Source of the DNA: a virus
Strand: one strand, 5' to 3'
IMG/VR virus record: IMGVR_UViG_3300046000_007848
Coordinates: 1 to 21,011 of that record
DNA: 21,011 nt
The position numbers and the translations under genes are program-made. The notes below the pieces were generated by a model. It was not told where the DNA came from. It worked only from the letters and a program-made list of their open reading frames with translations, and searched no databases. Positions 3 to 20,967 of this stretch are shown here, piece after piece. Position 1 is the stretch's first letter. The number at the start of each line of letters is the position of its first letter.

Positions 3-56
3 AGAAATAATCATAAAGTATTGAAAAATACTGAACTCACACAATTAACTAAATAA
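3..56 (+). CDS. C-terminal end of an upstream gene (partial, uncertain)
   Basis: Reading from base 3 gives 17 open codons ending in TAA at 54-56, just ahead of the scaffold gene. In T4-like phages the gene before 22 is usually 21 (prohead protease), so this may be its tail, but the short peptide is not recognisable. A second frame is open only to a TGA at 22-24, so the frame is not certain. If this frame is real, its stop codon lies inside the late-promoter-like 10-mer at 48-57. Confidence 0.3.
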   Translation, partial: RNNHKVLKNTELTQLTK

Positions 57-57
57 T
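48..57 (+). promoter_or_regulatory. late-promoter-like element before gene 22
   Basis: The sequence ACTAAATAAT resembles the T4 late promoter core TATAAATA, which gp55-loaded RNA polymerase recognises. The identical 10-mer occurs before gene 23 at 1055-1064. Both genes are late virion genes, which supports the role. A purine-rich ribosome site (AAAGGATC, about 65-72) follows before the ATG at 76. Confidence 0.6.
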
Positions 58-75
58 AAGGTATAAAGGATCAAC

Positions 76-1050: not shown

Positions 1051-1054
1051 ATTT

Positions 1055-1064
1055 ACTAAATAAT
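1055..1064 (+). promoter_or_regulatory. 23: late-promoter-like element before gene 23
   Basis: ACTAAATAAT is identical to the element at 48-57 and resembles the T4 late core TATAAATA. It sits in the 40-nt gap between genes 22 and 23 and is followed by a clear ribosome site (AGGAG, 1075-1079) before the ATG at 1091. A separate late promoter for the most abundant virion protein fits T4 biology. Confidence 0.65.
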
Positions 1065-1090
1065 TTTAATCCACAGGAGATACTAATAAA

Positions 1091-2530
1091 ATGAGTTACC
1101 GAGATGAAACCCCGTATGATATTTTAACTGAAAAATGGAATCCCGTGCTTAAGCACGAGGCACTTCCTTCGATTGGCAATGAATGGAAAACTAAAGTTAC
1201 TGCAGTTCTACTTGAGAATCAAGAGCAGAATATGCGTGACCAATATCTAACTGAAGTATCAACAGGAAATGATATTGGTGGTGTAGTCTCTGCTACCGCC
1301 CAAGGCGGTGTCCGTGGTTACGATCCAATTCTTATCAGTCTTGTTCGTCGTGCTATGCCGAATTTGATGGCATATGACATTTGCGGCGTACAACCAATGA
1401 CCGCCCCAACTGGACTCATCTTTGCGATGCGTGCCAAGTATGGTGACAGTACAGCTGTAGCTACCAACTTAAACAATGAAGCTCAATTCCAGGAACCAGA
1501 TCCTCGTTTCTCTGGTATTTCTGGTCCGTCTGGTGGCTTCACTGCAGCAGGTGGTATTACTACTGCTGGTGTCAACCCAACAGGAACTGCAGCGCAAGTT
1601 GGTGCTCTTAACTTCCAAAATGCAAAAAATCAAGTTAACTTTGACTCAATGAGAGCAATGTTAACTTCATCAGGCGAAGGTCTAGATTATGGTGCAGCAT
1701 CTACAGCACCAAACGTCATGAATAAAATGTCCTTTACGATTGACCGTGTTGCTGTAGCAGCCGGTAGCCGTGCACTGAGTGCAGGGTACACAGTCGAATT
1801 GGCACAAGATCTTAAGGCTGTTCACGGTCTTGACGCTGAAGCCGAACTCGCAAATCTTCTCAGCACTGAAATTCTTGCTGAAATTAATCGCGAAATCGTC
1901 CGTTCCATCTACTGGGTTGCAAAGCCTGGTACACAACAAAGTGATATTACTGCTGCTGGTACCTACAATCTGGATCTAGATTCAGATGGTCGTTGGTCTG
2001 CTGAACGTTTCCGTGGTCTGGTCTTCCAGATTGAACGTGAATGCAATGCCATCGCCAAGGAAACCCGTCGTGGTAAGGGTAACTTCGTCATCGTATCTTC
2101 CGATGTCGCCAGTGCACTTGCTATGTCAGGCTTCTTGAATCTCTCACCAGCCATTAATACCCAACTCGCAGTTGATGATACCGGCAGTACTTTTGCTGGT
2201 CTACTTAACGGTAAGCTGAAAGTTTACATTGATCCGTATTCACTGCTTGGCGTAAACTTCTTCTGCGTTGGTTATAAGGGCGAGTCTCCGTATGATGCAG
2301 GTGTATTCTACTGCCCATACGTTCCACTCCAAATGATGAGAGCTATTGATCCTGGTACTTTCCAACCTCGTATCGCGTTTAAGACACGTTACGGTATGGT
2401 TGCTAACCCATACGTTCTTAAGTCAGATGGTACTCCATATGGTTCAGATTTCTCTAACCAATCTGGTGCTAATCAGTACTACCGTCTCACCCGCGTCAAT
2501 GGTCTGCATGGTAACACCTACGGTAGTTAA
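1091..2530 (+). CDS. 23: major capsid protein gp23
   Basis: Forms the hexamers of the capsid shell. The 479 aa protein carries the hallmark T4 gp23 segment at about residues 78-112: YDPILISLVRRAMPN followed by AYDICGVQPM and PTGLIFAMR, nearly identical in pattern to T4 gp23. The N-terminus (LTEKWNPVL, then VTAVLLENQEQ) also matches the family start that precedes the gp21 protease cleavage region. The C-terminal half contains the family pattern VFYCPYVPLQMMRA and RIAFKTRYGMVANPY. T4 gp23 is 521 aa; marine relatives are often shorter, as here. It has a strong ribosome site (AGGAG) at good spacing. GC content is visibly higher than in the glycan island, as expected for an old core gene. The gene ends just before a strong terminator. 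Confidence 0.98.
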   Translation: MSYRDETPYDILTEKWNPVLKHEALPSIGNEWKTKVTAVLLENQEQNMRDQYLTEVSTGNDIGGVVSATAQGGVRGYDPILISLVRRAMPNLMAYDICGVQPMTAPTGLIFAMRAKYGDSTAVATNLNNEAQFQEPDPRFSGISGPSGGFTAAGGITTAGVNPTGTAAQVGALNFQNAKNQVNFDSMRAMLTSSGEGLDYGAASTAPNVMNKMSFTIDRVAVAAGSRALSAGYTVELAQDLKAVHGLDAEAELANLLSTEILAEINREIVRSIYWVAKPGTQQSDITAAGTYNLDLDSDGRWSAERFRGLVFQIERECNAIAKETRRGKGNFVIVSSDVASALAMSGFLNLSPAINTQLAVDDTGSTFAGLLNGKLKVYIDPYSLLGVNFFCVGYKGESPYDAGVFYCPYVPLQMMRAIDPGTFQPRIAFKTRYGMVANPYVLKSDGTPYGSDFSNQSGANQYYRLTRVNGLHGNTYGS

Positions 2531-2553
2531 TACGTAGGATAGAGTTTATAAAC

Positions 2554-2586
2554 AAAAACCCTCGGGCTAAACACCCGAGGGTTTTT
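2554..2586. terminator. bidirectional intrinsic terminator
   Basis: A perfect 13-bp inverted repeat: AAAAACCCTCGGG (2554-2566), 7-nt loop, CCCGAGGGTTTTT (2574-2586). The GC-rich stem is flanked by A5 on one side and T5 on the other, so it can stop transcription on both strands. It lies between gene 23 (+) and the convergent tail-tube-like gene (-). Confidence 0.95.
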
Positions 2587-2610
2587 CATTGGTTTGTATG
2601 TTTTTAAAAA

Positions 2611-3090
2611 TTAATCAAAATCGTAATATGAATAGGCAAATGTAACTCTTGCTTTCATCGGGGTGCTATCACCAAGATCAGATCTAAAAGTAAGAGCACT
2701 CAAAGCAGTTGGAATCACATAATGAAACACTGCAGTTTTGTTGATTGGATAATAATTAGATCCAAGAACTTGTAGATATGCAGTTGTTGCCCAGGTCCTA
2801 TACATTTCATTATCTGTATCGTTAGAAATATTACCGATAGATGACATCCAATCATATATGCTTTTCCAGTTTTCAATATTTTCATCTACGATAAATTCGA
2901 GAACAAGTGATTCAAATGTAAATGTATTTGTAGCAACCGGAATCTGAACACCCAGAGTAGTTGGCTGTGGGCTTACACTTAATTGAATACCGGGTAATGC
3001 AACTGTTTGACCAAACAATTCAAGATTACTATCTCCTCTGGATATAATAAATTTGTAACAATTTGATAATAAAGGATTGATGTTTGTCAT
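2611..3090 (-). CDS. tail-tube-like virion structural protein
   Basis: A 159 aa protein, probably a component of the tail. Visible features are an N-terminal YKFIISR strand, FGQTVALPGIQL, then FTFESLVLEFIVDENIENWKSIYDWM and a C-terminal beta-rich end KARVTFAYSYYDFD. The order (FxV..LPGI, FxxLxxxFxVDE.xxNW..IyxWm, terminal beta strand ending in YYD) resembles tail-tube proteins of the gp19 kind found in contractile and long-tailed phages. It is shorter and different enough from gp19 to be a paralogue. In related phages the slot after gene 23 may hold tail-completion gene 3, which is an alternative. Its ATG overlaps the previous gene's TGA by 4 nt (ATGA), so the two are translationally coupled. 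Confidence 0.55.
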   Translation of the reverse strand: MTNINPLLSNCYKFIISRGDSNLELFGQTVALPGIQLSVSPQPTTLGVQIPVATNTFTFESLVLEFIVDENIENWKSIYDWMSSIGNISNDTDNEMYRTWATTAYLQVLGSNYYPINKTAVFHYVIPTALSALTFRSDLGDSTPMKARVTFAYSYYDFD

Positions 3091-3725
3091 GTTAGATAGT
3101 CTTCTGGATTATCAGACCAACTCTGTGGATCTGATGCTTCGTTGTCAGGAATATAAGGTAGTTTTAAATCTTCCTTCTTGTATTTTCTTTTCTTTCTATT
3201 TTCATTAATTGCTTTTTCCCATTCAGCATTTAATGAATCAAACAATTCTTCAGATGGTTCTTCTCTATCTTCTTCTTCGTCAATTTCTGAATCTTGAAGA
3301 TGTTCTTCATAAATTTCTTGTACAAAATCAATAAATTGTGGATCAGAAAATAATGCCCATGCAACATCCATGTTGTCATGATCTGGTTCTATTTCTGCTA
3401 ATATAACATCATCTTTTAAACCATTCATAAATTCCAAATATGAATTGTACATATTGAGAATATCTTCAGATGGTTCTGCCAGATATATAACATGTTTCAT
3501 TAAAATCGTAATAGAAGTTTCTTTGATGTTAGCCAAGTAAGAAGTAACACGCAAACATTCAATTACCTCACCATCTGGAGTTGATGTTGTATAAAAGACA
3601 ATCTTAGCCGGGTTTGAGAGAACGACTTCGTCTGGTGATTCATCCACCATTGATATCAACTCTTCACCACTAGAGAGTTTAATAACTTTTATAGACGATG
3701 AAGCTTTAGGATCTTGTTCTTCCAT
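3087..3725 (-). CDS. conserved phage protein with Sm-like N-terminus, function unknown
   Basis: A 212 aa protein whose function is not recognised. The N-terminal part (about residues 10-90) has the pattern IKVIKLSSGEELISMV, VVLSNPAKIVFY and later a short beta-rich region, which resembles small Sm/LSm-like beta-barrel proteins seen in many T4-like marine phages. The middle and C-terminal parts are strongly acidic (EEHLQDSEIDEEEDREEPSEEL, about 140-161, written here only in part) with a basic patch NRKKRKYKK at about 175-183. It has an excellent ribosome site (GAGGAGG) and a late-promoter-like site upstream, and is coupled to the tail-tube-like gene by a 4-nt overlap. That points to late expression, possibly as a virion or assembly factor. 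Confidence 0.6.
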   Translation of the reverse strand: MEEQDPKASSSIKVIKLSSGEELISMVDESPDEVVLSNPAKIVFYTTSTPDGEVIECLRVTSYLANIKETSITILMKHVIYLAEPSEDILNMYNSYLEFMNGLKDDVILAEIEPDHDNMDVAWALFSDPQFIDFVQEIYEEHLQDSEIDEEEDREEPSEELFDSLNAEWEKAINENRKKRKYKKEDLKLPYIPDNEASDPQSWSDNPEDYLT

Positions 3726-3738
3726 GCTTCCTCCTCAA

Positions 3739-3750
3739 TACTATTTATCC
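3739..3750 (-). promoter_or_regulatory. late-promoter-like element before the Sm-like gene
   Basis: Read on the minus strand this is GGATAAATAGTA, containing ATAAATA, the core of the T4 late promoter. It lies 13 nt before the ATG, with the ribosome site GAGGAGG between. It would drive the two structural-type genes toward the terminator at 2554-2586. Confidence 0.5.
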
Positions 3751-3760
3751 AAAAGAAGTT

Positions 3761-5257
3761 TTATATTTTGATCTTAAAAACTTTATGATCAAACTTTTCT
3801 TTTTTGTATATTTTAATGCGTTGTTCAAAATGTTTCAGCACATGATTTTTATAACTTTTCCATGACATATCATCAACAATATCAAACACCTTGAGTGTTT
3901 GTTTGATTGCAGATGTTCTCAATCCGCGCCCAATACTTTGTAATAAGCGTATTACTGATTTTGTAGGAGATGCAAAGATAATATTGTCGAGATGTACGAT
4001 ATTAATACCTGTGCTTGTAGTACCAAAAGAGGCAACTAGAATAGCATTTTTTTCTTTGTCTATTATCTTTCGAATAAATTCTCTATTTTCTGCATCAACT
4101 TTACCTGAAATAAAGTATACTTTCTTTTCTGGGTATTGTTTTTGGATCAACTCATAAAGTGGTTTACCATGTTTTTCGACATAGTTAAAAAGAACGAGTG
4201 TATTACCTTGGGTTTCTCCACACAATTTTACAATAAAATCATTGCGTTTTGAATTTTCAACCAAATAAGCCATTTCGTCTTGATATTTTAATTTTTTTAC
4301 TCTATGTCGCGTTTGGTCATCATAATCCAAAACAATACAGTCTATCCCAAGCTTTGCCAGTACTCCTTTACTGATTAGCCCCCTTGTTGTTATAAACTGT
4401 ACAGATGGCCCTAGCGTGCCCTCTATTGAGAGTTTATGCGCCAAGGTCTGATCCAGCGTACCTGTAGTCCCGAGCCTAAACCAAGCCTTTGTCAGTTTTT
4501 TACCAATATTGACCAAAGAGTCTGCTTTTACAAGATGACACTCATCAAAAATGACAGCCTCGAATTGATCGAACCATTCTTTAGGAAGTTTGTACACAGA
4601 CTGCCATGTAGATACGACAACTGGCTTATCTGTTAATTTTTCTTTGCCAGCACTGATTTTATGTACAAATTTTGTTACAGACCAAGATTTATCGTTTTTT
4701 GAATAATCAAAGAAGTCTGCTTCCATCTGCTGTACTAACCCAACAGTGGGGACTAATAATAAAATTTTCTTGGGAGCCTTTAGGCAGTACCGTAATAAGT
4801 ATCGAATTATTAGATAAATAATAAGCGACTTACCACTACCTGTTGGCGATACGACAACAGATCGGGCATTTGTTAATGCATGTATGACAGCATTTTTTTG
4901 GTGGGGATGTGGAATTACAGGTTCTTTTTTAACAGTGACATTTAAAGTTTTATAAAATTCATCAAATGATTCAGAATTAATATCTATTGGATCTACATCT
5001 TTATCATCAAAAATAACATTATAGTGTCGTTCATCACAGAATCGTTTAAGATATGTCTTGAGTCCACATGGAAGAGTTGAACTATTGATCTCATATAATT
5101 TAATTTTACCATCCCATATACGAGATTTGTATAGGGGCATGTATTCTGCACCAGGAACTTTAAATGAAAAATAAGAACGAAGTTCTCTTTTTACAGAATC
5201 TTCGCAATCAATTTTATATTTTGTATGGTCTTCCGCTGATGCAATTATAGTATACAC
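3761..5257 (-). CDS. uvsW: UvsW superfamily 2 helicase
   Basis: ATP-dependent DNA/RNA helicase that in T4 unwinds R-loops, branched DNA and stalled forks, and helps switch from origin-dependent to recombination-dependent replication. The 498 aa length matches T4 UvsW (about 500 aa). The N-terminal domain (1-110) includes the family pattern IDCEDSxxxELRxxFSF and WDGKIKLYE. Helicase motifs follow: Walker A SPTGSGKS (137-144), LLLVPT (167-171), DECH box (238-241), motif III LGTTGTLD (262-269) and motif VI QSIGRGLR (440-447). The start is GTG (5257) with no clear Shine-Dalgarno; it gives the N-terminus expected for the family. A late-promoter-like CATAAATAATT lies immediately upstream. It sits 17 nt after uvsY, as part of one minus-strand unit. 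Confidence 0.95.
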   Translation of the reverse strand: MYTIIASAEDHTKYKIDCEDSVKRELRSYFSFKVPGAEYMPLYKSRIWDGKIKLYEINSSTLPCGLKTYLKRFCDERHYNVIFDDKDVDPIDINSESFDEFYKTLNVTVKKEPVIPHPHQKNAVIHALTNARSVVVSPTGSGKSLIIYLIIRYLLRYCLKAPKKILLLVPTVGLVQQMEADFFDYSKNDKSWSVTKFVHKISAGKEKLTDKPVVVSTWQSVYKLPKEWFDQFEAVIFDECHLVKADSLVNIGKKLTKAWFRLGTTGTLDQTLAHKLSIEGTLGPSVQFITTRGLISKGVLAKLGIDCIVLDYDDQTRHRVKKLKYQDEMAYLVENSKRNDFIVKLCGETQGNTLVLFNYVEKHGKPLYELIQKQYPEKKVYFISGKVDAENREFIRKIIDKEKNAILVASFGTTSTGINIVHLDNIIFASPTKSVIRLLQSIGRGLRTSAIKQTLKVFDIVDDMSWKSYKNHVLKHFEQRIKIYKKEKFDHKVFKIKI

Positions 5258-5260
5258 TAC

Positions 5261-5271
5261 AATTATTTATG
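5261..5271 (-). promoter_or_regulatory. late-promoter-like element abutting uvsW
   Basis: Minus-strand CATAAATAATT in the 17-nt gap between uvsY and uvsW. If used as a T4-type late promoter, the start of transcription would fall at or next to the GTG start codon of uvsW, giving no leader. T4 uvsW is itself a late gene, which makes the site credible, but the region is AT-rich. Confidence 0.4.
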
Positions 5272-5274
5272 TCA

Positions 5275-5712
5275 TCACGAGATACCGTTAACAAGCTTAT
5301 TCCAATCGATAGCAGACTTAATAGAGAAATTTCTATTAGTTAAAACCTTTAAAAAATCTTCTACCATCTTAACTTTGATTTCAAGAATATTTAAATCAGT
5401 TACAATTTTTAATAATATAGGATCTGCCTCTAGAAATTTATCTAGATCAGTTTTTAATAATTTCATTTGAAATGGATCTTCACCCCATTCAACCAACTCG
5501 TCTTGCGTTGCGTGACCAGTATAAATTTTCCATTTTCTTAATCGCATGATCAAGAATGCATTATTTAATTTTTGAAGTTCTATCTTAAGGTCTGCGTGTA
5601 TATTCAAGTACTTACCATGTATAGCAGGAGTCCTTATAGCTTCTTTACCTAACTCTGTAGAGTCTATTAAAGAATCTTTTTTAATGTTATCTTTAAGGGT
5701 TTCTAAATTCAT
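5275..5712 (-). CDS. uvsY: UvsY recombination mediator
   Basis: Loads the UvsX recombinase onto ssDNA coated with gp32. The 145 aa protein matches T4 UvsY (137 aa) in length and layout: N-terminal MxLExLxxxxKKDxxIDSTxL, then a helical region with HxxxxxYLNIHADLKxE, an RLRKWKIYTGH segment corresponding to the T4 ARLDYYSGR region, and a C-terminal helical end NFSIKSAIDWNKL like T4 GFAIKHIQDMRAF. The alignment fixes the ATG at 5712 as the start. No Shine-Dalgarno is visible, and a sigma70-type promoter lies so close that its predicted transcript starts about 3 nt before the ATG. It is followed by uvsW. Confidence 0.9.
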   Translation of the reverse strand: MNLETLKDNIKKDSLIDSTELGKEAIRTPAIHGKYLNIHADLKIELQKLNNAFLIMRLRKWKIYTGHATQDELVEWGEDPFQMKLLKTDLDKFLEADPILLKIVTDLNILEIKVKMVEDFLKVLTNRNFSIKSAIDWNKLVNGIS

Positions 5713-5721
5713 TATAAGTAT

Positions 5722-5750
5722 ACTATAGAGTATCCTTTAAGAAAAGTCAA
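5722..5750 (-). promoter_or_regulatory. sigma70-type promoter for uvsY
   Basis: On the minus strand: -35 TTGACT (5745-5750), 17-bp spacer, -10 TATAGT (5722-5727). Both boxes match 5 of 6 consensus bases, with ideal spacing. The predicted transcription start is near 5715, about 3 nt before the uvsY ATG. The -35 box overlaps the palindrome at 5747-5762. Confidence 0.75.
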
Positions 5751-5762
5751 GATATATCTTGA
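5747..5762. promoter_or_regulatory. 16-bp perfect palindrome, candidate operator
   Basis: TCAAGATATATCTTGA reads the same on both strands. It overlaps the -35 box of the leftward uvsY promoter at one end and the -35 box of the rightward glycan-island promoter at the other. A dimeric DNA-binding protein here could control both promoters at once. Part of the symmetry comes from the two inverted -35 boxes themselves (TTGA/TCAA), but the inner GATATATC is not explained by them. Confidence 0.55.
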
Positions 5763-5787
5763 TTATTTATTTAAAATGTGTTATAAT
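5759..5787 (+). promoter_or_regulatory. sigma70-type promoter for the glycan island
   Basis: -35 TTGATT (5759-5764), 17-bp spacer, -10 TATAAT (5782-5787) with an extended -10 (TGT directly before). The -10 is a perfect consensus. The predicted start is near 5794, giving a leader of about 27 nt to the ATG at 5821. It is divergent from the uvsY promoter. Confidence 0.75.
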
Positions 5788-5820
5788 ATTGTTATAAGTC
5801 TCCTTTAAATTAAATTGAAT

Positions 5821-6498
5821 ATGATTATAGATCTAAGACAAATACCTACCGTATGGATTAATCTTGATAGTGCTACTGGCAATGCATCGATCATGAACCA
5901 AAGATTTCATGAGCATAGATTTTCCAATACCCATCGCAAATCAGCCGTACAAATAGCACCACCACATGGTACCCCAGATACCATTAAACATTATGTTGGT
6001 TGTGCTCAATCACATATTGATATTTTAGAAGATACTCGATATGATTGCCCTATTTTAATCTTAGAAGATGATGCTGAATTCACACCAGATTTTCATCCTC
6101 AAATTGAAGTAAAAGACGATACAGATGCTGTATATCTTGGAGTTTCTTCTGGTAACCAACATTATATTACTAAACGTATCGATAAACATTATATGCGTAT
6201 TGGTAAAATTTTAGCAACACATGCAATTTTATATCTTAACAAAGATTATAGAAAAACTGTGGCAGACATAGCTAAAATTTTTGCTTATAGATTAAAAATT
6301 CCATTTGATAATGGATGTGCTTTAGTTCAGGAAAGATTTAATGTCATTACACCAAATAAACCTTTTTTTGTTCAGGCTAATGCACGACAAAGTGCAAATC
6401 AATGGGAAGTAGTCACATCTAGACCATTAGTAGATAAGAATAGTGAATTTCCTGTTCGAGATCCTAATGTTAAATTAGAAATACAGGTTCCAGCATGA
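5821..6498 (+). CDS. GT25-like glycosyltransferase, copy 1
   Basis: Probably transfers a sugar (family GT25 includes LPS galactosyltransferases) to a cell-surface or phage glycan. The 225 aa protein has the GT25 core: N-terminal VWINLDS, GCAQSHIDIL (60-69) and LILEDDAEF (79-87), in which EDD is the likely metal/nucleotide-sugar site. These are followed by DDTDAVYLGV, a KILATHAILYLNKDYR segment and, near the end, FNVITPNKPFFVQA. It is shorter than many GT25 proteins. The ATG at 5821 is preferred over the in-frame TTG at 5815, because the MIID start is shared with copy 2. No Shine-Dalgarno is seen. It is the first gene after the rightward promoter and overlaps the GT11 gene by 4 nt (ATGA). Its acceptor and donor are unknown. 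Confidence 0.8.
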   Translation: MIIDLRQIPTVWINLDSATGNASIMNQRFHEHRFSNTHRKSAVQIAPPHGTPDTIKHYVGCAQSHIDILEDTRYDCPILILEDDAEFTPDFHPQIEVKDDTDAVYLGVSSGNQHYITKRIDKHYMRIGKILATHAILYLNKDYRKTVADIAKIFAYRLKIPFDNGCALVQERFNVITPNKPFFVQANARQSANQWEVVTSRPLVDKNSEFPVRDPNVKLEIQVPA

Positions 6499-7283
6499 TT
6501 TCATGTCAATCAATAGGAACCAATGGTAGATTTGGTAACCAAATGTTTCAATATGCTACGCTTTACGCTTTAGGTAAAGAATTACATTATGAAATTGGTG
6601 TACCATATAAACAACGTAATCAAAATGATAAATTAGATTTTTGTTTACCAGATGCGTTTGACCTATCAGCATCAGATTCATCTAAAAATTTTATGAGTTC
6701 TATGTATATAGAACCTCACTTTAATTACGATGCAAATATTCATAATATTCCAGACAATTGTGATATTAGAGGATATTTTCAAACAGAAAAATATTTTAAA
6801 AAATATAAAAAAGATTTAATTACTAAAGAATTTAAATTTAAGAAATCTATAGAAACACAAGCAAACGAACTATTTGCCGGTAAAGATTGTGAATTAGTTT
6901 CTTTGCATATGCGGTTGGGTGATTATCTTTACCTGGCAGACTCACATCCTATCTGCCCCATAGAATATTATAGAGAAGCTCTTAAATTAATACCGGCTGA
7001 TGTACAAATTATATTGTTTAGTGATGATTATGGTGTTGCCAATAACATTATTAAAGATTTAGGTAGACATGTAATGATGTATGGAAGCAATGATAAATTT
7101 TTAGATATGTGTTTAATGAAAAAATGTGAATATCATATTATTGCAAATAGTTCATTTAGTTGGTGGGGAGCTTGGCTAGCTAATAGTAAAAAAACTATTG
7201 CACCAAAAGTTTGGTTTGGTCCATCTCCTAATGTTACAAAAAATTGGAATGATATTTATTGTGATGAATGGGAAGTAATATGA
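6495..7283 (+). CDS. GT11 alpha-1,2-fucosyltransferase-like enzyme
   Basis: Expected to transfer L-fucose, or the related 3,6-dideoxy sugar colitose, from a GDP donor to the 2-position of a galactose-type acceptor. The 262 aa protein shows the GT11 signature throughout: GRFGNQMFQYATLYAL (11-26), GYFQTEKYF (93-101), the GDP-binding motif HMRLGDY (138-144), ILFSDD (173-178) and ANSSFSWWGAWL (217-228), ending APKVWFGP. Length is slightly below the usual 280-300 aa. The ATG lies in an ATGA overlap with the gene before, so it is translationally coupled. Genes for making GDP-6-deoxy sugars lie downstream in the same island. The E. coli O55 enzyme WbgN shows that GT11 enzymes can use GDP-colitose, which is relevant here because a ColD-like gene is present. 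Confidence 0.92.
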   Translation: MISCQSIGTNGRFGNQMFQYATLYALGKELHYEIGVPYKQRNQNDKLDFCLPDAFDLSASDSSKNFMSSMYIEPHFNYDANIHNIPDNCDIRGYFQTEKYFKKYKKDLITKEFKFKKSIETQANELFAGKDCELVSLHMRLGDYLYLADSHPICPIEYYREALKLIPADVQIILFSDDYGVANNIIKDLGRHVMMYGSNDKFLDMCLMKKCEYHIIANSSFSWWGAWLANSKKTIAPKVWFGPSPNVTKNWNDIYCDEWEVI

Positions 7284-7951
7284 TAATTGATATTCCATCT
7301 GTTAAAACTTTTTATGTAAACATGGACAATAGAGTTGATAGAAGAGATCAAACAGAAAAGCTATTGTCTAATTTACATTTTGATAATTATCAAAGATATT
7401 CTGCAAAAACTGGCCAAAATGCTATAGAAGGCTGTGCCTTATCTCATATAGATATTTTGCGTTTAAATAAATGTAATAGTCCATTTTTAATATTAGAAGA
7501 TGACATAGCAATAGGTAGTGGGTATAGTCAAAATATCGAAGTTCCGGATGATGTAGATGCAATTTATTTGGGGTATTCAATGTGGGGATATGACATAGAG
7601 AGAGCTAAAAAGTTTTCCAGAATGCAAAATACGACTTCTTTTAAAAAAGTTACAAATAACATATATAAAATTTCAAATATGTTATCAACCCATGCTATCA
7701 TGTACTGTAGCGAAAGATATTCAAATGCAGTTGCAGACATTATGGAAACCATATGGAATAAAGAAAAATGGCACTGTGATTACGCATGTTCATTGATACA
7801 AGAAGAATTTAATGTATATGCTCCAGTTCACCCATATTTTTTTCAATATGATCATTGGACAATGCCTTGGACTTATGTTTCATTAAATAAATTTCAAGAG
7901 ATGAATATAATATATAAAAATACAACAAATGACTCAAGACTTAATCCCTAA
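7280..7951 (+). CDS. GT25-like glycosyltransferase, copy 2
   Basis: The second GT25-type enzyme and the most canonical of the three: FYVNMDNRVDRRDQT at 11-25 (the family's N-terminal nucleotide-binding pattern), GCALSHIDIL (51-60) and LILEDD (70-75). As in the other copies these are followed by DDVDAIYLGY, KISNMLSTHAIMYCSERY and FNVYAPVHPYFFQ. The protein is 223 aa. The ATG at 7280 is chosen over the in-frame ATG at 7268 because it has GGAAG at proper spacing and makes an ATGA overlap with the GT11 stop, as other joints in this cluster do. Its end overlaps the GT6 gene by 23 nt. It shares its block order with copies 1 and 3, so the three probably arose by duplication and then diverged. Confidence 0.85.
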   Translation: MIIDIPSVKTFYVNMDNRVDRRDQTEKLLSNLHFDNYQRYSAKTGQNAIEGCALSHIDILRLNKCNSPFLILEDDIAIGSGYSQNIEVPDDVDAIYLGYSMWGYDIERAKKFSRMQNTTSFKKVTNNIYKISNMLSTHAIMYCSERYSNAVADIMETIWNKEKWHCDYACSLIQEEFNVYAPVHPYFFQYDHWTMPWTYVSLNKFQEMNIIYKNTTNDSRLNP

Positions 7952-8636
7952 TATTGGTTTATTAATAATAGCAACAAATAAATATATTTCATTTGTTGAT
8001 CCCTTAGTTAATAGTGCAGATAAATTATTTTTGCCAAATTGTAATGTAACATATTGTGTTTTTACTAATAATATAAAAACATTAAATACACCACGACAAT
8101 ATAATATGTTAAATATTGATCATGAATCTTGGCCTGCTCCAACTCTTAAAAGATATGATTATTTCAATAAATACGCAGAGTATTTAAAAACTTTTGATTA
8201 TTTGTATTATTGTGACGCTGATATGAGATTTGTTGATGTAGTTGGAGATGAAATTTTAGGAGATCTTATAACAACTTTACATCCAGGGTTTTGGGGTAAA
8301 AATAATATCCAATTTTCATATGAGCGTAGACCAGAATGTAAAGCTTACATTTCCTATGGTAGCGGAAATGCGTATTATGCTGGTGGATTTAATGGTGGAA
8401 AATCAAGTGAGTTTTTAAAAATGGCTAACACAATTGTTTCTTGGAGAAAAGAAGATGAATTAAATGGTTTAATTCCTGTGTGGCACGATGAAAGTTATTT
8501 GAATAAATATATGTACTTAAACCCACCAACAAAAGCTTTAACACCAAGTTATTGTTACCCTGAATCTTGGGATCTACCTTTTGAAAAACGTTTATTGGCT
8601 TTAGACAAAAATCACAGTGAAATGAGATCTTTATGA
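7929..8636 (+). CDS. GT6 glycosyltransferase (ABO blood-group transferase homologue)
   Basis: Member of family GT6, retaining alpha-1,3-Gal/GalNAc transferases that include human ABO transferases. At 235 aa it is only the catalytic domain, without the membrane anchor of the vertebrate enzymes. The matches to the ABO enzyme are close: NIGLLIIATNKYISF (8-22), the metal-binding DxD as DAD (96-98), LHPGFWG (117-123), YERRP (131-135) with AYI, YYAGGFNGG (149-157), WHDES (185-189, containing the Glu that lines the active site) and LNKY (191-194). A final KNH..MR corresponds to the ABO C-terminus. Most bacterial GT6 proteins have NxN instead of DxD; here DxD is kept, suggesting a metal-dependent enzyme. 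At the ABO donor-selecting positions (Leu266/Gly268 in A, Met/Ala in B) it has Ala and Gly, closer to the GalNAc-type enzyme. That specificity is inference. Confidence 0.95.
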   Translation: MTQDLIPNIGLLIIATNKYISFVDPLVNSADKLFLPNCNVTYCVFTNNIKTLNTPRQYNMLNIDHESWPAPTLKRYDYFNKYAEYLKTFDYLYYCDADMRFVDVVGDEILGDLITTLHPGFWGKNNIQFSYERRPECKAYISYGSGNAYYAGGFNGGKSSEFLKMANTIVSWRKEDELNGLIPVWHDESYLNKYMYLNPPTKALTPSYCYPESWDLPFEKRLLALDKNHSEMRSL

Positions 8637-9277
8637 AAATTAATTTAAATGAAATTGTAACTTTGTGGTATGGTGGAATAAAAAAACATAGATTAGAAAT
8701 TATAGAAAATACTATTACTTCATTAAATTTAAATGCTAAACATATTCCTACAATAATTTCAGATGCTGCTGTTGGATTTGTTCGGTTAGGTTGTTCTGCT
8801 AGCCATAAAAATGCATTAGAAGAAAGTTTAAATTATTCAGGGCCAGTATTAATTTTAGAAGATGATGCTAGCCCAACAGAATGGTATTCAAATACAATTG
8901 ACATTCCCGATGATGCAGATGCATTTTACGTAGGAACATGTTTAAATGGAATTAGTCCACATTGGGAAAAAATGGGACCAGACGAAGGTTGTTGTGGTCA
9001 ATTAGAAGTATTACAAAGACATGAGAGTTTTTATAAAATTTCTAAAATGTTAACAACACATGCTATATTATATATTTCAGAAAAATATAAAACAGATTGT
9101 TACAACTTATTGCAAGAAAATAATGGTAGCCGTTATTTAGATGTTTTATTTGCCAGTAAGATGCATAATTATAATGTATATGCTCCAAAATATCCTTTAT
9201 TTTATCAAAATTGTAAAGATGATAATTATGATGCATATATTAATACAATTACACCTTTAATTCATGTATTAAAATAA
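8633..9277 (+). CDS. GT25-like glycosyltransferase, copy 3
   Basis: The third GT25-type enzyme, 214 aa. Blocks: a diverged N-terminus (VTLWYGGIKKHRLEI), GCSASHKNAL (53-62), LILEDDAS (73-80), DDADAFYVGT, KISKMLTTHAILYISEKY and YNVYAPKYPLFYQN. The usual NLDxRxdR N-terminal motif is degraded, so donor binding may differ from copies 1 and 2. It begins in an ATGA overlap with the GT6 gene, so it should be made together with it. A short 25-nt gap separates it from the FkbM gene. Its product and acceptor are unknown. Confidence 0.8.
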   Translation: MKINLNEIVTLWYGGIKKHRLEIIENTITSLNLNAKHIPTIISDAAVGFVRLGCSASHKNALEESLNYSGPVLILEDDASPTEWYSNTIDIPDDADAFYVGTCLNGISPHWEKMGPDEGCCGQLEVLQRHESFYKISKMLTTHAILYISEKYKTDCYNLLQENNGSRYLDVLFASKMHNYNVYAPKYPLFYQNCKDDNYDAYINTITPLIHVLK

Positions 9278-9302
9278 TTTTTAATTAATAGAAAGTTAAT
9301 TT

Positions 9303-9929
9303 ATGGAAGAAATATTTTATAAAAGCATCAATTGGGAAAATAGTGATATAAAAAATTGGCATATTGAAAACGATAAATACAATTTTTTATATAAACACAA
9401 GTTGGATAATACATCTTTAGTTATTGATATTGGTTCTTATAATGGAAATTGGTTAAAAATAATAACTGATTTATACGACTGTCATGGGATGGGATTAGAA
9501 CCAGTTAATAAATTTTATACAGAAAGTTTAAAACATACAAATGATAAAATAAAATTTATAAACTCTGGAATAACTACTAAAAAAAATCATATTTCAAAAA
9601 TTAATTTAAATGATGATAGTACCACGATCGTAAACTCAGATGGTGATTATGAAATTTCATTACTTAATATTAATGATTTTTTAAAAAGTAATAATTTTAA
9701 ACAAATTGATTTGCTGCAAATTAATATTGAGGGATATGAGTATGAATTAATTCCTCATATGATTGAAAATAAATTATTTGACAACATTAGTACGTTACAA
9801 ATACAATTTCATTGTATATCTAATTTAAGTGAAATAAAACACACAAATATTAAAACTCAATTGAGTAAAATAGGATTTAAAACACTTTTTGATTTTAAAC
9901 ATGTCTGGTATGGAGCATCTAAAATATGA
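9303..9929 (+). CDS. FkbM-type SAM-dependent methyltransferase
   Basis: Likely O-methylates a sugar hydroxyl, as FkbM-family enzymes in glycan clusters often do. The 208 aa protein contains the SAM-binding motif I VIDIGSYNGNW (40-50), GMGLEP (62-67, the acidic residue at the end of strand 2), and the FkbM hallmark DLLQINIEGYEYELI (136-150), followed by IQFHC. It is extremely AT-rich with many Asn, Lys and Ile codons. No clear Shine-Dalgarno is seen before the ATG. Its stop overlaps the ATG of a broken epimerase remnant (ATGA), showing that an intact gene was once coupled here. The substrate is unknown; a plausible role is capping or disguising the glycan made by the neighbours. Confidence 0.85.
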   Translation: MEEIFYKSINWENSDIKNWHIENDKYNFLYKHKLDNTSLVIDIGSYNGNWLKIITDLYDCHGMGLEPVNKFYTESLKHTNDKIKFINSGITTKKNHISKINLNDDSTTIVNSDGDYEISLLNINDFLKSNNFKQIDLLQINIEGYEYELIPHMIENKLFDNISTLQIQFHCISNLSEIKHTNIKTQLSKIGFKTLFDFKHVWYGASKI

Positions 9930-10060
9930 AGTATTTAATTACTGGTAGCACAGGCTTTATTAGCTTTAATTTGGTAGGGGATAACATTTTATCTACTAAA
10001 TAATCATATCTTATTAAAAGAAATGTGTTCAATATTGATACAGGAAAAAACTATATAAAT
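9926..10060 (+). pseudogene. remnant of a nucleotide-sugar epimerase/dehydratase (extended SDR)
   Basis: The ATG at 9926 opens 25 codons encoding MKYLITGSTGFISFNL, the standard N-terminal NAD-binding start of sugar-nucleotide epimerases, then hits TAA at 10001-10003. In the same frame after the stop the reading continues LIKRNVFNIDTGKNYIND, which looks like the next beta strand of such enzymes (…VxNID…). The third glycine of GxxGxxG is Ser. Nothing of the remaining roughly 250 residues is present; the next gene starts at 10059 in another frame. It is best read as a gene deleted down to its first 45 codons. The ATGA coupling to the FkbM gene is kept. Confidence 0.7.
9995..10004 (+). promoter_or_regulatory. 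possible late-promoter-like element inside the epimerase remnant
   Basis: ACTAAATAAT, identical to the 10-mers before genes 22 and 23, including the TAA that ends the remnant. It lies 54 nt before the ATG at 10059. It could be a late promoter for the second half of the island, but the sequence is so AT-rich that a chance match is quite possible. Confidence 0.25.
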
Positions 10061-10979
10061 GACAACTTTATCTTTTTGTTTTTACAACCCGGGCCACAAC
10101 GGTGATATTCATTATTCTAGAGAATTTGTTAAAGATATTTGTAAAAAATTAAATGTTACAGCAGAATATGCAATGTCATGTTCTGCAAATTTAACAAAAG
10201 ACATACAATGTTTAACCGCGTTTCCTTCGGCTAATGTTAATGCCCCAAATAATAGTCGTGTGATAAAAAATTTAAACATTTCATTAGAGGATGAAACATT
10301 TTTTGATCAACCTAGTAACACTTTATTCATTAATACGTGGGTAGGTTCTTCTTATGTAAAATATTTAAATCAAGGAGGAGGGTGTTGCCTTGAAAGTTGT
10401 TATTTAAAATTTAAAAATATATTTTTTAATTTAAAAATACCTTTAAATGACCGTTCTTTTTATGTTCCTGAGATTGATTGGTCATATTATGATGTATCTA
10501 ATATTGATAATTTTTTTAAAACATCTAATTATGAAAAATTTTATCTTTTTTGTAATGGTCCAGTACTTTCGTTTCAAGCACATAATAATGATTTAAATCC
10601 AATAATAAGTCAATTAGCATTGGCAAATCCAAAAGCCGTGTTTATTCTTACTGATAATAGTATAAGATTGGATCACAAAAATATTTTTTATACTTCTGAT
10701 ATTATAAAAATTAATGGTTGTGATTTAAATGAAATTGGTTATATGGCAACAAAATGTAATTTTATTTTTGGAAGAGCAAGTGGACCCTTTTGTTTTTCTC
10801 ATACCAAAGAAATTTTAAAGGATAAAACAAAAGTGTTAATGGCATTATGTAATAATAGGAATGATGGCTTGTGGGCATCGCCAGACGTTTTTGATCATGA
10901 ACATAGAGCAACACAATTATGGACAAACCAATACGCACCAGATTTGTTGTATACACAAATTCAAAACAGTTTAAATTGA
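10059..10979 (+). CDS. uncharacterised protein, possible GT-B glycosyltransferase
   Basis: A 306 aa protein not firmly recognised. The N-terminal part (LSFCFYNPGHNGDIHYSREFVKDI) looks like the start of a GT-B fold, with a glycine-rich loop for the acceptor half (H-N-G-D-I). The C-terminal half has NDLNPIISQLALANPKAVFILTD, then INGCDLNEIGYMATKCNFIFGRASGPFCFS. This pattern resembles the nucleotide-sugar half of heptosyltransferase-like (GT9) enzymes, where a short Gly-Ser-Gly-Pro loop follows strand and helix. It is rich in Cys (CCLESC at about 109-114) for such a protein. It has no signal peptide or membrane segment. Its place between sugar-modifying genes supports a glycosyltransferase role, but this is inference. 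Confidence 0.5.
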   Translation: MTTLSFCFYNPGHNGDIHYSREFVKDICKKLNVTAEYAMSCSANLTKDIQCLTAFPSANVNAPNNSRVIKNLNISLEDETFFDQPSNTLFINTWVGSSYVKYLNQGGGCCLESCYLKFKNIFFNLKIPLNDRSFYVPEIDWSYYDVSNIDNFFKTSNYEKFYLFCNGPVLSFQAHNNDLNPIISQLALANPKAVFILTDNSIRLDHKNIFYTSDIIKINGCDLNEIGYMATKCNFIFGRASGPFCFSHTKEILKDKTKVLMALCNNRNDGLWASPDVFDHEHRATQLWTNQYAPDLLYTQIQNSLN

Positions 10980-10988
10980 GATTTATAA

Positions 10989-11342
10989 ATGAATGATATT
11001 GCATTAAATATTGAAGATACTATTAAAAATCAAGTTAATCTTATATTGAGTATCAAAAACAAACAGTTACCAGAAATACCTTTAGATATTGTTGCTACTG
11101 ATAACTTAGCTGAAGTAATTGAAAAACTTGTGATTCTTCACATTAGAACTTGGTTTTTGGAAGACATGGCTGGAGCAGCTACTAGTGACGAAGAATTAGC
11201 CTCAATAAAAAGAAAAGTAGATATTTGTTTTAAACAAAAAAGACCAACCTATATTCAAGCTATAAATAAAATTATAGATGATGCAATTGTAAATAATAAA
11301 TCTTTATTAGAAAATTCTGTTAAAATTTATAAAAATTATTAA
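10989..11342 (+). CDS. DUF4254-like small protein
   Basis: A 117 aa helical protein. The central stretch WFLEDMAGAATSDEELASIKRKVDICFKQKRPTYIQAINKII (about 55-96; quoted here in short form as WFLED..SIKRKVD..RPTYIQAINK) resembles the DUF4254 family. That family is found in LPS and capsule clusters of bacteria and in some phages, with a Trp-x-x-Glu-Asp helix followed by KRxxDxxNxxR and ExxID. Its biochemical role is not known. It lies 9 nt after the preceding gene and 2 nt before the ColD-like gene, so it is certainly part of the operon. It may be an accessory factor for a neighbouring transferase or dehydratase. Confidence 0.55.
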   Translation: MNDIALNIEDTIKNQVNLILSIKNKQLPEIPLDIVATDNLAEVIEKLVILHIRTWFLEDMAGAATSDEELASIKRKVDICFKQKRPTYIQAINKIIDDAIVNNKSLLENSVKIYKNY

Positions 11343-11344
11343 AT

Positions 11345-12508
11345 ATGGAAAAAATTAAATTAGTGAAAGATACAATTTCTTATAAAGAAATTGATCTATT
11401 ATGTGAATGGTTACAAACTTATCCTCAACTCACAAAAGGTCCACTTACAGAACAGTTTGAAAATATGTGGGCAAATTGGGTAGGCACAAAATATTCAGTT
11501 TTTGTTAATTCTGGGTCTTCAGCTAATTTAGCAATGATTTATTCATTAAAAGTATCCAATAAACTTAAAAATAATAAAATTGTTTTACCTTGTGTTTCTT
11601 GGGTGACTACAGTAAGCCCTGTAATGCAATTTGGTATGCAGCCTATTTTATGCGAAACAGATGAAGAAACTTTAGGATTAAATGTTGAATCATTTGAAAA
11701 AATATGCAAAGAAGAAAATCCAAGTTGTGTATGTTTAGTTCATGTTTTAGGAATTCCTAATAAAATAAAAGAAATACAAGCTATTTGCAAAAAATATAAT
11801 GTTATATTATTAGAAGACTCGTGTGAAAGTGTTGGTTCTATGTATGAAGGAAAACAAACAGGAACTTTTGGATTGATGTCTTCCTTTTCCACATATTTTG
11901 GTCATCATTTTTCTACTATTGAAGGTGGTTTTATTTGCACCGATGACTTTGAATTATATGAAATTTTAAAATCAATAAGATCACATGGATGGAGCAGAGA
12001 TCTTTCAATTGACACAAAAAATCAATTACAAAAAGAACATAATATTGATGATTTTCAAAATTTTTATACTTTTTATTATCCAGGGTTTAATATAAGATCA
12101 ACAGATTTACAGGCTTTTTTGGGAATTAATCAGTTAAAAACTTTAAATGAAAAAAATTTAAATAGATACAATAATTTAAAATTATATGATTCTTTAATAA
12201 TTAACAAATATTGGAAATTAAAATTTAATGATTTTATTAGTAATTTTGCATATCCAATAATTCACCCTAAAAAGAATTTTATTGCAAAAACACTAAAAGA
12301 CAACAATGTAGAATGTCGGCCTCTTATTTGTGGAAATATGGCACGACAACCATTTTTTTATAAAACATATGGAGTCAAAAAATATCAATTTGCTGATATT
12401 GTTCATGATTACGGAATGTATTTACCAAATAATCCTGATATGACTGAAACAGATATTACGTATATTTGTAATTTAGTCAATAATATAACGAAAGAAACTG
12501 ATGAATAA
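11345..12508 (+). CDS. colD: ColD-like PLP-dependent sugar 3-dehydratase
   Basis: Belongs to the DegT/DnrJ/EryC1/StrS aminotransferase fold but lacks the catalytic lysine. Where sugar aminotransferases have the PLP-binding Lys, this protein reads YFGHHFSTIEGG (184-195), with His at 187-188. That replacement is typical of GDP-4-keto-6-deoxy-D-mannose 3-dehydratase (ColD) and of the related RfbH/DdhC enzymes, which remove the 3-hydroxyl. Other ColD-like features are NSGSSANLAMI (55-65), LPCVSWVTT (81-89), LLEDSCESVGS (155-165, with the Asp that contacts the PLP ring nitrogen), GTFGLMSSFS, SHGWSRDL and VECRPLICGN. The 387 aa length matches ColD. It overlaps the Fcl/ColC gene by 8 nt. Together with GMD and Fcl/ColC it completes a route to GDP-L-colitose. 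RfbH-like use of a CDP sugar is less likely, given the GDP-sugar neighbours and the absence of an RfbH N-terminal extension. Confidence 0.85.
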   Translation: MEKIKLVKDTISYKEIDLLCEWLQTYPQLTKGPLTEQFENMWANWVGTKYSVFVNSGSSANLAMIYSLKVSNKLKNNKIVLPCVSWVTTVSPVMQFGMQPILCETDEETLGLNVESFEKICKEENPSCVCLVHVLGIPNKIKEIQAICKKYNVILLEDSCESVGSMYEGKQTGTFGLMSSFSTYFGHHFSTIEGGFICTDDFELYEILKSIRSHGWSRDLSIDTKNQLQKEHNIDDFQNFYTFYYPGFNIRSTDLQAFLGINQLKTLNEKNLNRYNNLKLYDSLIINKYWKLKFNDFISNFAYPIIHPKKNFIAKTLKDNNVECRPLICGNMARQPFFYKTYGVKKYQFADIVHDYGMYLPNNPDMTETDITYICNLVNNITKETDE

Positions 12509-13445
12509 AAATTCAAAAATATTTGTGGCTGGTCATAAAGGACTAGTTGGTTCTGCTTTAATTAAAAAATTAATAAAAAATGGTTTTACAAATCTTTTAA
12601 TAAAAACTAAAGAAGAATTAGATTTAAGAAATCAACTAGACGTAAAGTATTTTTTTGATAGAGAAAAACCAGAATATGTTTTTTTGAGTGCTGCAAAAGT
12701 TGGAGGAATAGGTTGGAATAAAATGTGTCCTGCTGAATTTATATATGACAATTTACAAATTCAAAATAATATAATTCACAGCTCATATGTAAATAATATT
12801 AAAAAATTATTATTTTTAGGTTCAGCGTGTATATATCCAAAAATTACACCACAACCAATAAAAGAAGAATATTTAATGACAAACGAATTAGAACCAACCA
12901 ATGAGGGTTATGCCCTATCAAAAATTGTTGGGTTAAAAATGTGCCAGTACTATAATAAACAATATGGATTTGATGCAATATCATTGATGCCAGCAAATTT
13001 ATATGGAATTAATGACAATTTTAATATTGATAAATGCCATGTTATCCCAGCACTTATTCGTAAATTTATTGACGCAAAAGAAAATAATTATCCAAGTATT
13101 ACTTGTTTTGGAGATGGTACACCAACACGAGAATTTTTATATGCTGATGATTTAGCAGATGCGTGTTTATTTTTGATGGAGAATTATAATTCTTCTGATA
13201 TTATTAATGTTGGATCTGGAATTGAAGTAAGCATTAAAGATTTAGCAGAATTAATTAAAATTAAAATTGGATTCAAAGGAGATATTATTTGGGATACTAC
13301 AAAACCAAATGGAACTCCTTTAAGAAAATTATGTAATAAAAAAATTAATTCTTTGGGCTGGAGCTCAACAACAACTCTTGAATCGGGTCTTTCAAAAACA
13401 ATTGATTGGTATTTAACGAATAAAAATAATTATTATAGAAATTAA
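12501..13445 (+). CDS. fcl: GDP-L-fucose synthase / GDP-L-colitose synthase (Fcl/ColC)
   Basis: A bifunctional epimerase-reductase of the extended SDR family. It turns GDP-4-keto-6-deoxymannose into GDP-L-fucose or, if a ColD product is supplied, GDP-4-keto-3,6-dideoxymannose into GDP-L-colitose. The 314 aa protein has the NADP-binding motif GHKGLVGSA (11-19), LDLRNQ, AAKVGGIGWN (64-73), the catalytic GSACIYPK (107-114, with the Cys base at 110), EPTNEGYALSK (131-141, Tyr137/Lys141), MPANLYG and CHVIPAL (179-185, with the acid His180). All known catalytic residues of the family are present, so it should be active. Sequence alone does not separate Fcl from ColC. The overlap with the ColD-like gene upstream favours the colitose reading. 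Confidence 0.92.
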   Translation: MNKNSKIFVAGHKGLVGSALIKKLIKNGFTNLLIKTKEELDLRNQLDVKYFFDREKPEYVFLSAAKVGGIGWNKMCPAEFIYDNLQIQNNIIHSSYVNNIKKLLFLGSACIYPKITPQPIKEEYLMTNELEPTNEGYALSKIVGLKMCQYYNKQYGFDAISLMPANLYGINDNFNIDKCHVIPALIRKFIDAKENNYPSITCFGDGTPTREFLYADDLADACLFLMENYNSSDIINVGSGIEVSIKDLAELIKIKIGFKGDIIWDTTKPNGTPLRKLCNKKINSLGWSSTTTLESGLSKTIDWYLTNKNNYYRN

Positions 13446-13458
13446 GATTTTTAAAAAT

Positions 13459-14436
13459 ATGAAACAAACTGCATTAATTACTGGTATAAATGGTCAAGAT
13501 GGCTCTTACTTAGCAGAACATCTTTTGGGATTAGGATATTTTGTAGTAGGCTTAAAAAGAAGAACAAGCACATTTACTACAGAAAGAATTAATCATATTT
13601 ACAATAACCCCAATTTTAAATTAGAGTATTATGATCTGAATGATGCTTCTTCTTGCTATCGGTATATAAATCAATATCAACCAAACGAAATTTATAATCT
13701 TGCTGCTCAGTCTCATGTAAAGGTTTCTTTTGATATTCCAACTAACACAGTTGATGGTATTGTTCAGGGTACATTAAATTGGCTTGAAGCAATAAGAAAT
13801 ACCAATACTTCTATTAAATTTTATCAAGCATCTTCTTCTGAAATGTTTGGTGATAGCGCAATAATAAAAGATACAGGCTATGATGAGTATTCACCTTTAG
13901 TCCCCGTCTCACCTTATGCAGCAGCAAAAGTATGTGCGCATAACTTAGTTAATATTTATAGAAGGTCATATGGATTACATGCATGTTCGGGTATTTTGTT
14001 TAATCACGAGTCTCCAAGACGTGGTGAAACATTTGTTACTAGAAAGATTACTCTTGCAGCAGCTAATATAAAACTTGGTTTACAAAACAAACTTTATTTG
14101 GGTAATCTAACAGCAAAAAGAGATTGGGGATTTGCTGGTGATTATGTAAAAGCCATGCATCTTATGTTACAACATCATATTGCATCTGATTATATAATTG
14201 CAACTGGAAAAACATATTCTATCCAAGAATTTTTAAAAGAAGTATTTGATTATGCTTCATTGGACTATAAAGAATATGTTGTGGTTGATTCAAAACTTTT
14301 TAGACCAATTGAAGTCCCTTATTTACTTGGAAATTCAAGTAAAGCCCAAAATGATTTAGGGTGGAAACCTATGGTAGACATGAAACAATTAGCACATATG
14401 ATGTATGATGCAGATTTAAAATTATTACAAGCTTGA
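13459..14436 (+). CDS. gmd: GDP-mannose 4,6-dehydratase
   Basis: Converts GDP-D-mannose to GDP-4-keto-6-deoxy-D-mannose, the shared precursor of GDP-fucose, GDP-colitose and related sugars. The 325 aa protein shows the GMD pattern: ALITGINGQDGSYLAEHLL (5-23), GLKRRTSTFTTERI (31-44, the NADP phosphate-binding basic residues), NLAAQSHVKVSF (80-91), YQASSSEMFG (122-131) with Ser/Glu of the active site, SPYAAAK (151-157, Tyr153/Lys157), GILFNHESPRRGETFVTRKI and RDWGFAGDYVKAM. The usual length is about 350-370 aa, and a loop before the C-terminal substrate region is shortened. The precursor GDP-mannose must come from the host or from genes outside the window. It lies 13 nt after fcl. Confidence 0.96.
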   Translation: MKQTALITGINGQDGSYLAEHLLGLGYFVVGLKRRTSTFTTERINHIYNNPNFKLEYYDLNDASSCYRYINQYQPNEIYNLAAQSHVKVSFDIPTNTVDGIVQGTLNWLEAIRNTNTSIKFYQASSSEMFGDSAIIKDTGYDEYSPLVPVSPYAAAKVCAHNLVNIYRRSYGLHACSGILFNHESPRRGETFVTRKITLAAANIKLGLQNKLYLGNLTAKRDWGFAGDYVKAMHLMLQHHIASDYIIATGKTYSIQEFLKEVFDYASLDYKEYVVVDSKLFRPIEVPYLLGNSSKAQNDLGWKPMVDMKQLAHMMYDADLKLLQA

Positions 14437-15387: not shown

Positions 15388-15412
15388 TGTTTTGTCCTGA
15401 TTATGGTATAAT
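15384..15412 (+). promoter_or_regulatory. sigma70-type promoter for gene 55
   Basis: -35 TTGATG (15384-15389), 17-bp spacer, -10 TATAAT (15407-15412) with an extended -10 (TGG before it). The predicted transcription start, 7 nt after the -10, is 15419, which is the A of the gene 55 ATG. The mRNA would be leaderless. The -35 overlaps the stop of the epimerase gene. Confidence 0.75.
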
Positions 15413-15418
15413 TGACCC

Positions 15419-18762: not shown

Positions 18763-18767
18763 CAGTC

Positions 18768-19605: not shown

Positions 19606-19612
19606 GGTAACT

Positions 19613-20946: not shown

Positions 20947-20947
20947 C
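20938..20947 (+). promoter_or_regulatory. late-promoter-like element at the right edge
   Basis: CATAAATAAC, containing the T4 late core ATAAATA, spans the gene 62 stop codon. A strong ribosome site (TGAGGAG, 20956-20962) and an ATG at 20968 follow at good spacing, as at other late genes here. Confidence 0.5.
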
Positions 20948-20967
20948 TCTGTTACTGAGGAGTTATT

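Follow-up and report, generated by a model that had tools for sequence, protein, structure and literature searches.

Most of what is known about sugars of the blood-group A/B type comes from vertebrates and from bacteria of the gut. A T4-like phage that carries a gene with the motifs of the ABO transferases raises the question of which lineage of family GT6 its enzyme belongs to, which sugar the enzyme might add, and to what acceptor. The gene lies in a 21-kb virus record, of which the whole stretch of 21,011 nucleotides was analysed and is called the window here. The initial annotation had described its product as a phage GT6 with a vertebrate-type DxD metal site and an A-like donor pocket.

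The gene order of the window runs from scaffold, gp23, tail tube, UvsW and UvsY through a block of sugar genes to the positions of gp55, gp47, gp46, clamp, gp44 and gp62. Matches to Pfam or PHROG were obtained for the scaffold, gp23 (Pfam E=3e-137), the tail tube, UvsW, UvsY and the A subunit of the clamp loader. The genes after the sugar block were presumed from their position to be gp55, gp47, gp46, the sliding clamp and gp62; the product of 15419-15994 had no Pfam match. The sugar island sits between uvsY and the gp55 position, unlike the islands of cyanophages. A plain cyanophage was rejected, as the closest gp23 of a cultured cyanophage shares only about 54% identity and the searched fragments, among them a 108-kb sister fragment, yielded no psbA. 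The sugar block and the segment discussed below consist of the following features.

5815..6498, plus strand: GT25-like protein 1 (phrog_24091; Pfam GT25 E=6e-4, below cut-off; PHROG E=3e-36)
6495..7283, plus strand: GT11, alpha-1,2-fucosyltransferase family (PF01531, E=1e-22), kept in sister phages; left border of the exchanged segment
7268..7951, plus strand: GT25-like protein 2 (phrog_24091; Pfam GT25 E=3e-5), overlapping the GT6 start by 23 nt
7929..8636, plus strand: GT6 glycosyltransferase with DAD 96-98, H118, S130, A151-G152-G153, W185-H186-D187-E188, K227 and R233 (PF03414, PDB matches, residue map, AlphaFold model)
8633..9277, plus strand: GT25-like protein 3 (phrog_24091, E=1.5e-22), overlapping the GT6 stop by 4 nt
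9303..9929, plus strand: FkbM-type methyltransferase (PF05050, E=4e-8)
10059..10979, plus strand: 306-aa protein, 78% identical in locus L005 (no Pfam, NCBIfam or PHROG match)
10989..11342, plus strand: 117-aa protein, 79% identical in L005 (no Pfam or PHROG match)
11345..12508, plus strand: ColD-like GDP-4-keto-6-deoxymannose 3-dehydratase, a DegT protein (PDB ColD/WbdK E=1.5e-61; FGHHFSTIEGG)
12501..13445, plus strand: GDP-L-fucose synthase (Fcl) or a related colitose synthase from this family (NF047922 426 bits, cut-off 500; E. coli GDP-fucose synthetase E about 1e-94)
13459..14436, plus strand: GDP-mannose 4,6-dehydratase (GMD; TIGR01472 415.7 bits, above cut-off), 87% identical in nucleotides in the sisters; right border of the exchanged segment
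14482..15387, plus strand: GalE-type UDP-sugar 4-epimerase, a possible donor supply (PDB UDP-glucose 4-epimerase E=5e-59)
7287..13419, no strand assigned: exchanged segment containing GT6 (no homologous DNA by blastn in the sister fragments G001 and G004)

The matches of the GT25-like proteins are weak, and the acceptor backbone cannot be deduced from the window. The histidine of FGHHFSTIEGG replaces the PLP lysine of aminotransferases, which we take to be the mark of the ColD type. With such an enzyme the phage may make GDP-colitose, and GDP-fucose and GDP-colitose are both possible products. ColD-type copies were also seen in further viral GT6 loci (L115, L132, L142, L163, L170 and others), and the 306-aa and 117-aa proteins are conserved as neighbours in both L005 and L115.

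The GT6 reading frame is intact and begins with ATG, a start that is supported by the relative in L005, whose GT6 is 76% identical and opens with the same MTQDLIPN. Pfam Glyco_transf_6 (PF03414) matches residues 8-233 with E=1e-46 and 159.6 bits against a cut-off of 25, and NCBIfam Gltr_6 reaches 213.6 bits, which is under the model's own cut-off of 250. Among PDB sequences BoGT6a matches at E=5e-51 and the human ABO transferases at about 1e-44. Judged by these matches, which lie far above chance, the frame encodes a genuine CAZy GT6 enzyme. Its description as a minimal catalytic domain of 235 aa is borne out, BoGT6a itself having 246 aa. An AlphaFold2 model based on 68 aligned sequences (mean pLDDT 96.4, pTM 0.92) predicts the GT-A fold of the solved GT6 structures: the top structural match is BoGT6a (4ayj_B; Z 34.6, 225 residues, 1.5 A, 42% identity), and human GTA and GTB are found at Z about 33 and 1.1-1.5 A.

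All five ABO-type motifs that had been named were located, namely DAD at 96-98, YERRP at 131-135, YYAGGF at 149-154, WHDES at 185-189 and LNKY at 191-194. Their order had been listed incorrectly, with YYAGGF last, and it in fact precedes WHDES and LNKY. In the alignment to human GTA, D96 and D98 correspond to D211 and D213, H118 to H233, G120 to G235, A151-G152-G153 to 266-268, E188 to E303, K227 to K346 and R233 to R352. The catalytic set of GT6 is present with E188 (ABO E303), W185-H186-D187-E188 and the invariant Lys K227 (ABO K346).

The window enzyme carries its DxD (D96-A97-D98) at the ABO positions 211-213. The motif is tied to metal need, including one biochemically tested bacterial DxD enzyme (PMC3961637). 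An arginine close to the C-terminal end (alpha3GT R365, ABO R352) is reported for most metal-dependent GT6 and not for the bacterial ones (PMC3961637); the window enzyme has it as R233, together with Lys K227. Such a KxxxxxR tail occurs in 120 of 138 DxD sequences versus 11 of 46 NxN sequences, copies which are not independent of each other. From these residues the enzyme would be expected to be metal-dependent and to perform a retaining transfer with Mn2+ or Mg2+.

Phage GT6 of the DxD type is already known, and the window gene adds another member. By tblastn we found 71 phage GenBank records with GT6, mostly from Synechococcus and Prochlorococcus phages and with P-SSM2 among them, and IMG/VR holds at least 543 relatives of the window enzyme. 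Among the viral relatives examined, 101 of 103 are DxD, and the two with NAN both stem from human-faecal phage fragments. The picture from which the initial annotation started, with NxN in most bacterial proteins and DxD in vertebrates and a cyanophage, needs to be widened, since DxD is bacterial too. Of 80 bacterial sequences, a selection biased towards the window query, 44 have NxN or a related motif and 36 have DxD; the latter stem from Dependentiae and Chlamydiae in many cases, and also from Verrucomicrobiota and other groups. DxD enzymes are frequent in metagenome-assembled genomes of Dependentiae and Chlamydiae (L025-L067; clade support 99/100). GT6 proteins 46-48% identical to that of the window were also seen in two jumbo-phage records of 634-642 kb (L009, LR745206; L010, LR756502).

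The phylogeny was calculated for 77 rows of phage, bacterial and vertebrate GT6, with the two motif columns left out. The NxN sequences form one clade (98/85), and the window enzyme lies outside of it. The branch that splits off the NxN clade together with one distant cyanophage group has a support of 100/99, with the window on the other side, and the DxD/NxN state changes only once on this motif-stripped tree. A tree placing the window enzyme inside the bacterial NxN clade was thus not obtained, and the 100/99 branch speaks against this candidate placement. A tree forced to unite the window group and the NxN set is worse by 44 units of log-likelihood (AU p=0.083), so that a position within the NxN group is strongly disfavoured, short of formal rejection. 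The position outside the NxN clade, the single motif change and the Lys...Arg tail support the proposed assignment to a DxD lineage. The part of the proposal that did not stand is that of one phage lineage: a single phage clade was not found, the tree requiring eight changes of the viral label, at least five of them imposed by branches with strong support. DxD sequences of phages and bacteria are intermingled, as would be expected from several transfers, and the cyanophages form two distant groups. The vertebrate enzymes fall among the DxD sequences with no settled place, and a forced clade with the window group was neither rejected nor supported (p=0.53). The single DxD/NxN change is a clear starting point for asking how metal independence originated.

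Our main reading, to which we assign a probability of roughly 0.6, is that of a compact DxD GT6 which transfers GalNAc, or with lower probability Gal, onto galactose capped by GT11, with donors from the same block and with a segment that is swapped, leading to a varied surface glycan. GT11 would cap galactose with alpha-1,2-linked fucose, or with colitose, and GT6 would then add alpha-1,3 GalNAc (or Gal) to give a histo-blood-group A/B-like end of the glycan. GDP-fucose could be provided by GMD and Fcl, GDP-colitose by GMD, ColD and an Fcl-like enzyme, and UDP-Gal or UDP-GalNAc by the GalE-type epimerase. The segment between GT11 and GMD is exchanged as a unit among near-identical phages, whereby GT6 is replaced by another GT6 or removed. 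The product would probably alter either the surface polysaccharide of the host or the surface of the virion, and the terminal sugar would vary from phage to phage. The analysis shows the family, the predicted fold, the motif, the position on the tree, the linkage and the exchange of the segment; metal need, donor, acceptor and target of the enzyme are what we infer in this scheme.

The target is the aspect for which the alternative is strongest. The glycan might be attached in the cytoplasm to virion proteins of the phage itself, and not to the host surface polysaccharide. Chloroviruses have their own glycosyltransferases and GDP-fucose genes, and their capsids are glycosylated. No flippase, polymerase, lipid-carrier or anchor gene was recognised in the island, and the lack of a recognised flippase or polymerase makes virion glycosylation a fair rival. 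On the other side, the sugar clusters of cyanophages are interpreted as changing the host surface or O-antigen against rival phages in PMC7824862. We consider a virion target a serious competitor, with odds somewhat short of even.

For the donor, the counterparts of ABO 235, 266 and 268 are G120, A151 and G153, the same as in BoGT6a and compatible with UDP-GalNAc. From a study of the human enzymes it was proposed that GalNAc use requires Gly at 266 or 268 (PMC4692239); the window enzyme has Gly at 268 and 235 like GTA, and Ala at 266 like BoGT6a. BoGT6a transfers GalNAc to 2'-fucosyllactose and yields an A-like antigen (PMC3961637). The glycines at 235 and 268 together with the A-G-G pocket of the BoGT6a type make GalNAc the better guess, likelier than Gal. 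The A-like pocket of the initial annotation is therefore plausible, as A-G-G and G235 equal those of BoGT6a, but it is not diagnostic. The A-G-G pocket is frequent among DxD and NxN enzymes alike, including enzymes without a known donor; it is thus neither a marker of the phage lineage nor exclusive to known GalNAc enzymes.

The same enzyme class acting on the same acceptor could also use UDP-Gal, as in the B type, or both donors. A small residue at 266 can allow both sugars, as in the variant AAGlyB (PMC4692239), and the epimerase of the phage is closest to UDP-glucose 4-epimerases. This has to be weighed against the three aligned A/B positions, none of which is of the B type (235 is G, 266 is A and 268 is G), and against BoGT6a, which with the same A-G-G uses UDP-GalNAc (PMC3961637). 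A B-type or dual donor therefore appears rather improbable to us.

The best clue to the acceptor comes from the gene neighbourhood. In the synthesis of the A and B antigens fucose is first attached to galactose, followed by GalNAc or Gal. When the viral GT6 loci were clustered at 80% identity, GT11 was found near GT6 in 41 of the 57 clusters, always on the same strand and in 37 of these 41 within 3 kb. For the background we used 80 viral loci found through GMD, six of which have GT11 within 8 kb. This control set was not matched by phage type, has GT6 in two of its 80 loci and served solely for the background rate of GT11. The difference has a Fisher p of about 1e-15, related loci not being independent. 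In the cyanophage and marine-virus loci GT11 lies upstream of GT6 on the same strand in all 12 examined, in eight of them directly adjacent or overlapping. This linkage suggests a pathway of the H-to-A/B kind. A very large and mostly DxD set of phage GT6 with a partner that would make the expected acceptor renders A/B-like phage glycans and their donor testable.

One can also imagine an unfucosylated acceptor, as for alpha3GT or Forssman synthase, with GT11 being merely a neighbour in the island. GT11 was not seen in 16 of the 57 viral clusters within about 6-8 kb on each side (some perhaps from contig ends), the islands are modular, and in the sister fragment G001 about 10 kb lie between GT6 and GT11. 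The strong linkage, above all in the 12 cyanophage and marine-virus loci, speaks against this, as does H118, which is the residue of the H-acceptor enzymes: H118 and W185-E188 are shared with GTA and BoGT6a, and alpha3GT has a glutamine (Q247) at the position of H118. A point against the H-type acceptor is the acceptor-side position ABO D326, which is a proline in the window enzyme and in BoGT6a as well. On balance we consider an unfucosylated acceptor unlikely, and an H-type acceptor made by GT11 is kept as the preferred reading.

A comparison with known systems puts the enzyme into perspective. The GT6 of P-SSM2 (PSSM2_268) resembles it in being encoded by a T4-like phage, in DxD and A-G-G, and in a sugar island that has GT11 upstream and also contains GMD and epimerases for nucleotide sugars, but the two proteins are only about 43-47% identical. 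Most other GT6 of Kyanoviridae or cyanophages are 30% or less identical to that of the window and have a Q-G-C pocket. BoGT6a of Bacteroides ovatus (4ayj, 4cj8) shares the fold, the minimal size, A-G-G and the acceptor and catalytic residues (H122, W189-E192). It differs by NAN in place of DAD, by metal independence, by another C-terminal tail and by belonging to another clade. Human GTA and GTB have DxD, WHDES, LNKY and the counterparts K346 and R352 in common with the window enzyme, which is about 36% identical to them, possesses neither stem nor membrane anchor, and has A266 for Leu or Met, S130 for T245 and P211 for D326. The gene clusters for lipopolysaccharide or capsular polysaccharide of cyanophages (P-SSM2; jumbo-phage review PMC7824862; S-SCSM1, PMC9602691) likewise contain epimerases, GMD, GDP-fucose synthase and several glycosyltransferases, and PMC9602691 describes a cyanophage that encodes fucosyltransferases along with the synthesis of GDP-fucose.

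Like the linkage to GT11, the exchange of the segment lay outside the scope of the initial annotation; it became visible in near-identical phages. In blastn, the 108-kb fragment G001 (L264, L344) is 93.6% identical to the window over 14-7286, 94.6% over 15401-21011 and 87% in GMD, and shares no detectable DNA with 7287-13419. Its own segment holds a different GT6 of 235 aa, which is 38% identical, has DCD as its metal motif and carries Gln-Asn-Cys at 266-268. In the 29-kb fragment G004 (L345, L432) the flanks are 92.6% and 97.0% identical, and the island, complete from uvsY to the gp55 position, contains no GT6. The more distant L005 keeps the arrangement of the window. The edges of the exchanged segment coincide with gene ends, on the left with the end of GT11 and on the right with the start of GMD. 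Intact flanks of 93-97% identity around a replaced middle indicate that GT6 belongs to an exchangeable segment. The Q-N-C enzymes (L344:2565-3272; L381, L394, L401, L402, L406) form a clade of their own, and in related phages, too, they lie next to the gp55-like gene.

This arrangement could amount to an ABO-like polymorphism, in which GT11 is fixed and is combined with an A-G-G GT6, a Q-N-C GT6 or none. Sister phages would then differ in the terminal sugar on the same core, probably selected by receptors, rival phages or grazers. We put this forward tentatively and consider it possible, with the balance leaning against it. Since near-identical phages swap their GT6 types, they could serve as a natural system for studying what selects the variety of terminal sugars.

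Pairwise dN/dS values, calculated for the window GT6 with its relatives and among these (76-95% identity), are about 0.10-0.22, with synonymous changes close to saturation in several pairs, and indicate purifying selection. That GT6 is an acquired host gene, functionless and decaying, is hardly credible, as its absence from the near-identical G004 is opposed by these dN/dS values, by the intact catalytic residues and by the overlapping layout around the gene, which is kept in L001 and L005.

In the small part of the GT6 literature covered, we found no description of the GT6-GT11 pairing, of its H-to-A/B interpretation or of the swapping of GT6 types, and no priority is claimed.

A minor observation concerns the genes at the right end of the segment. 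The GMD of the window is 49% identical to that of L005, versus 85% for the neighbouring Fcl, which suggests a separate replacement of GMD.
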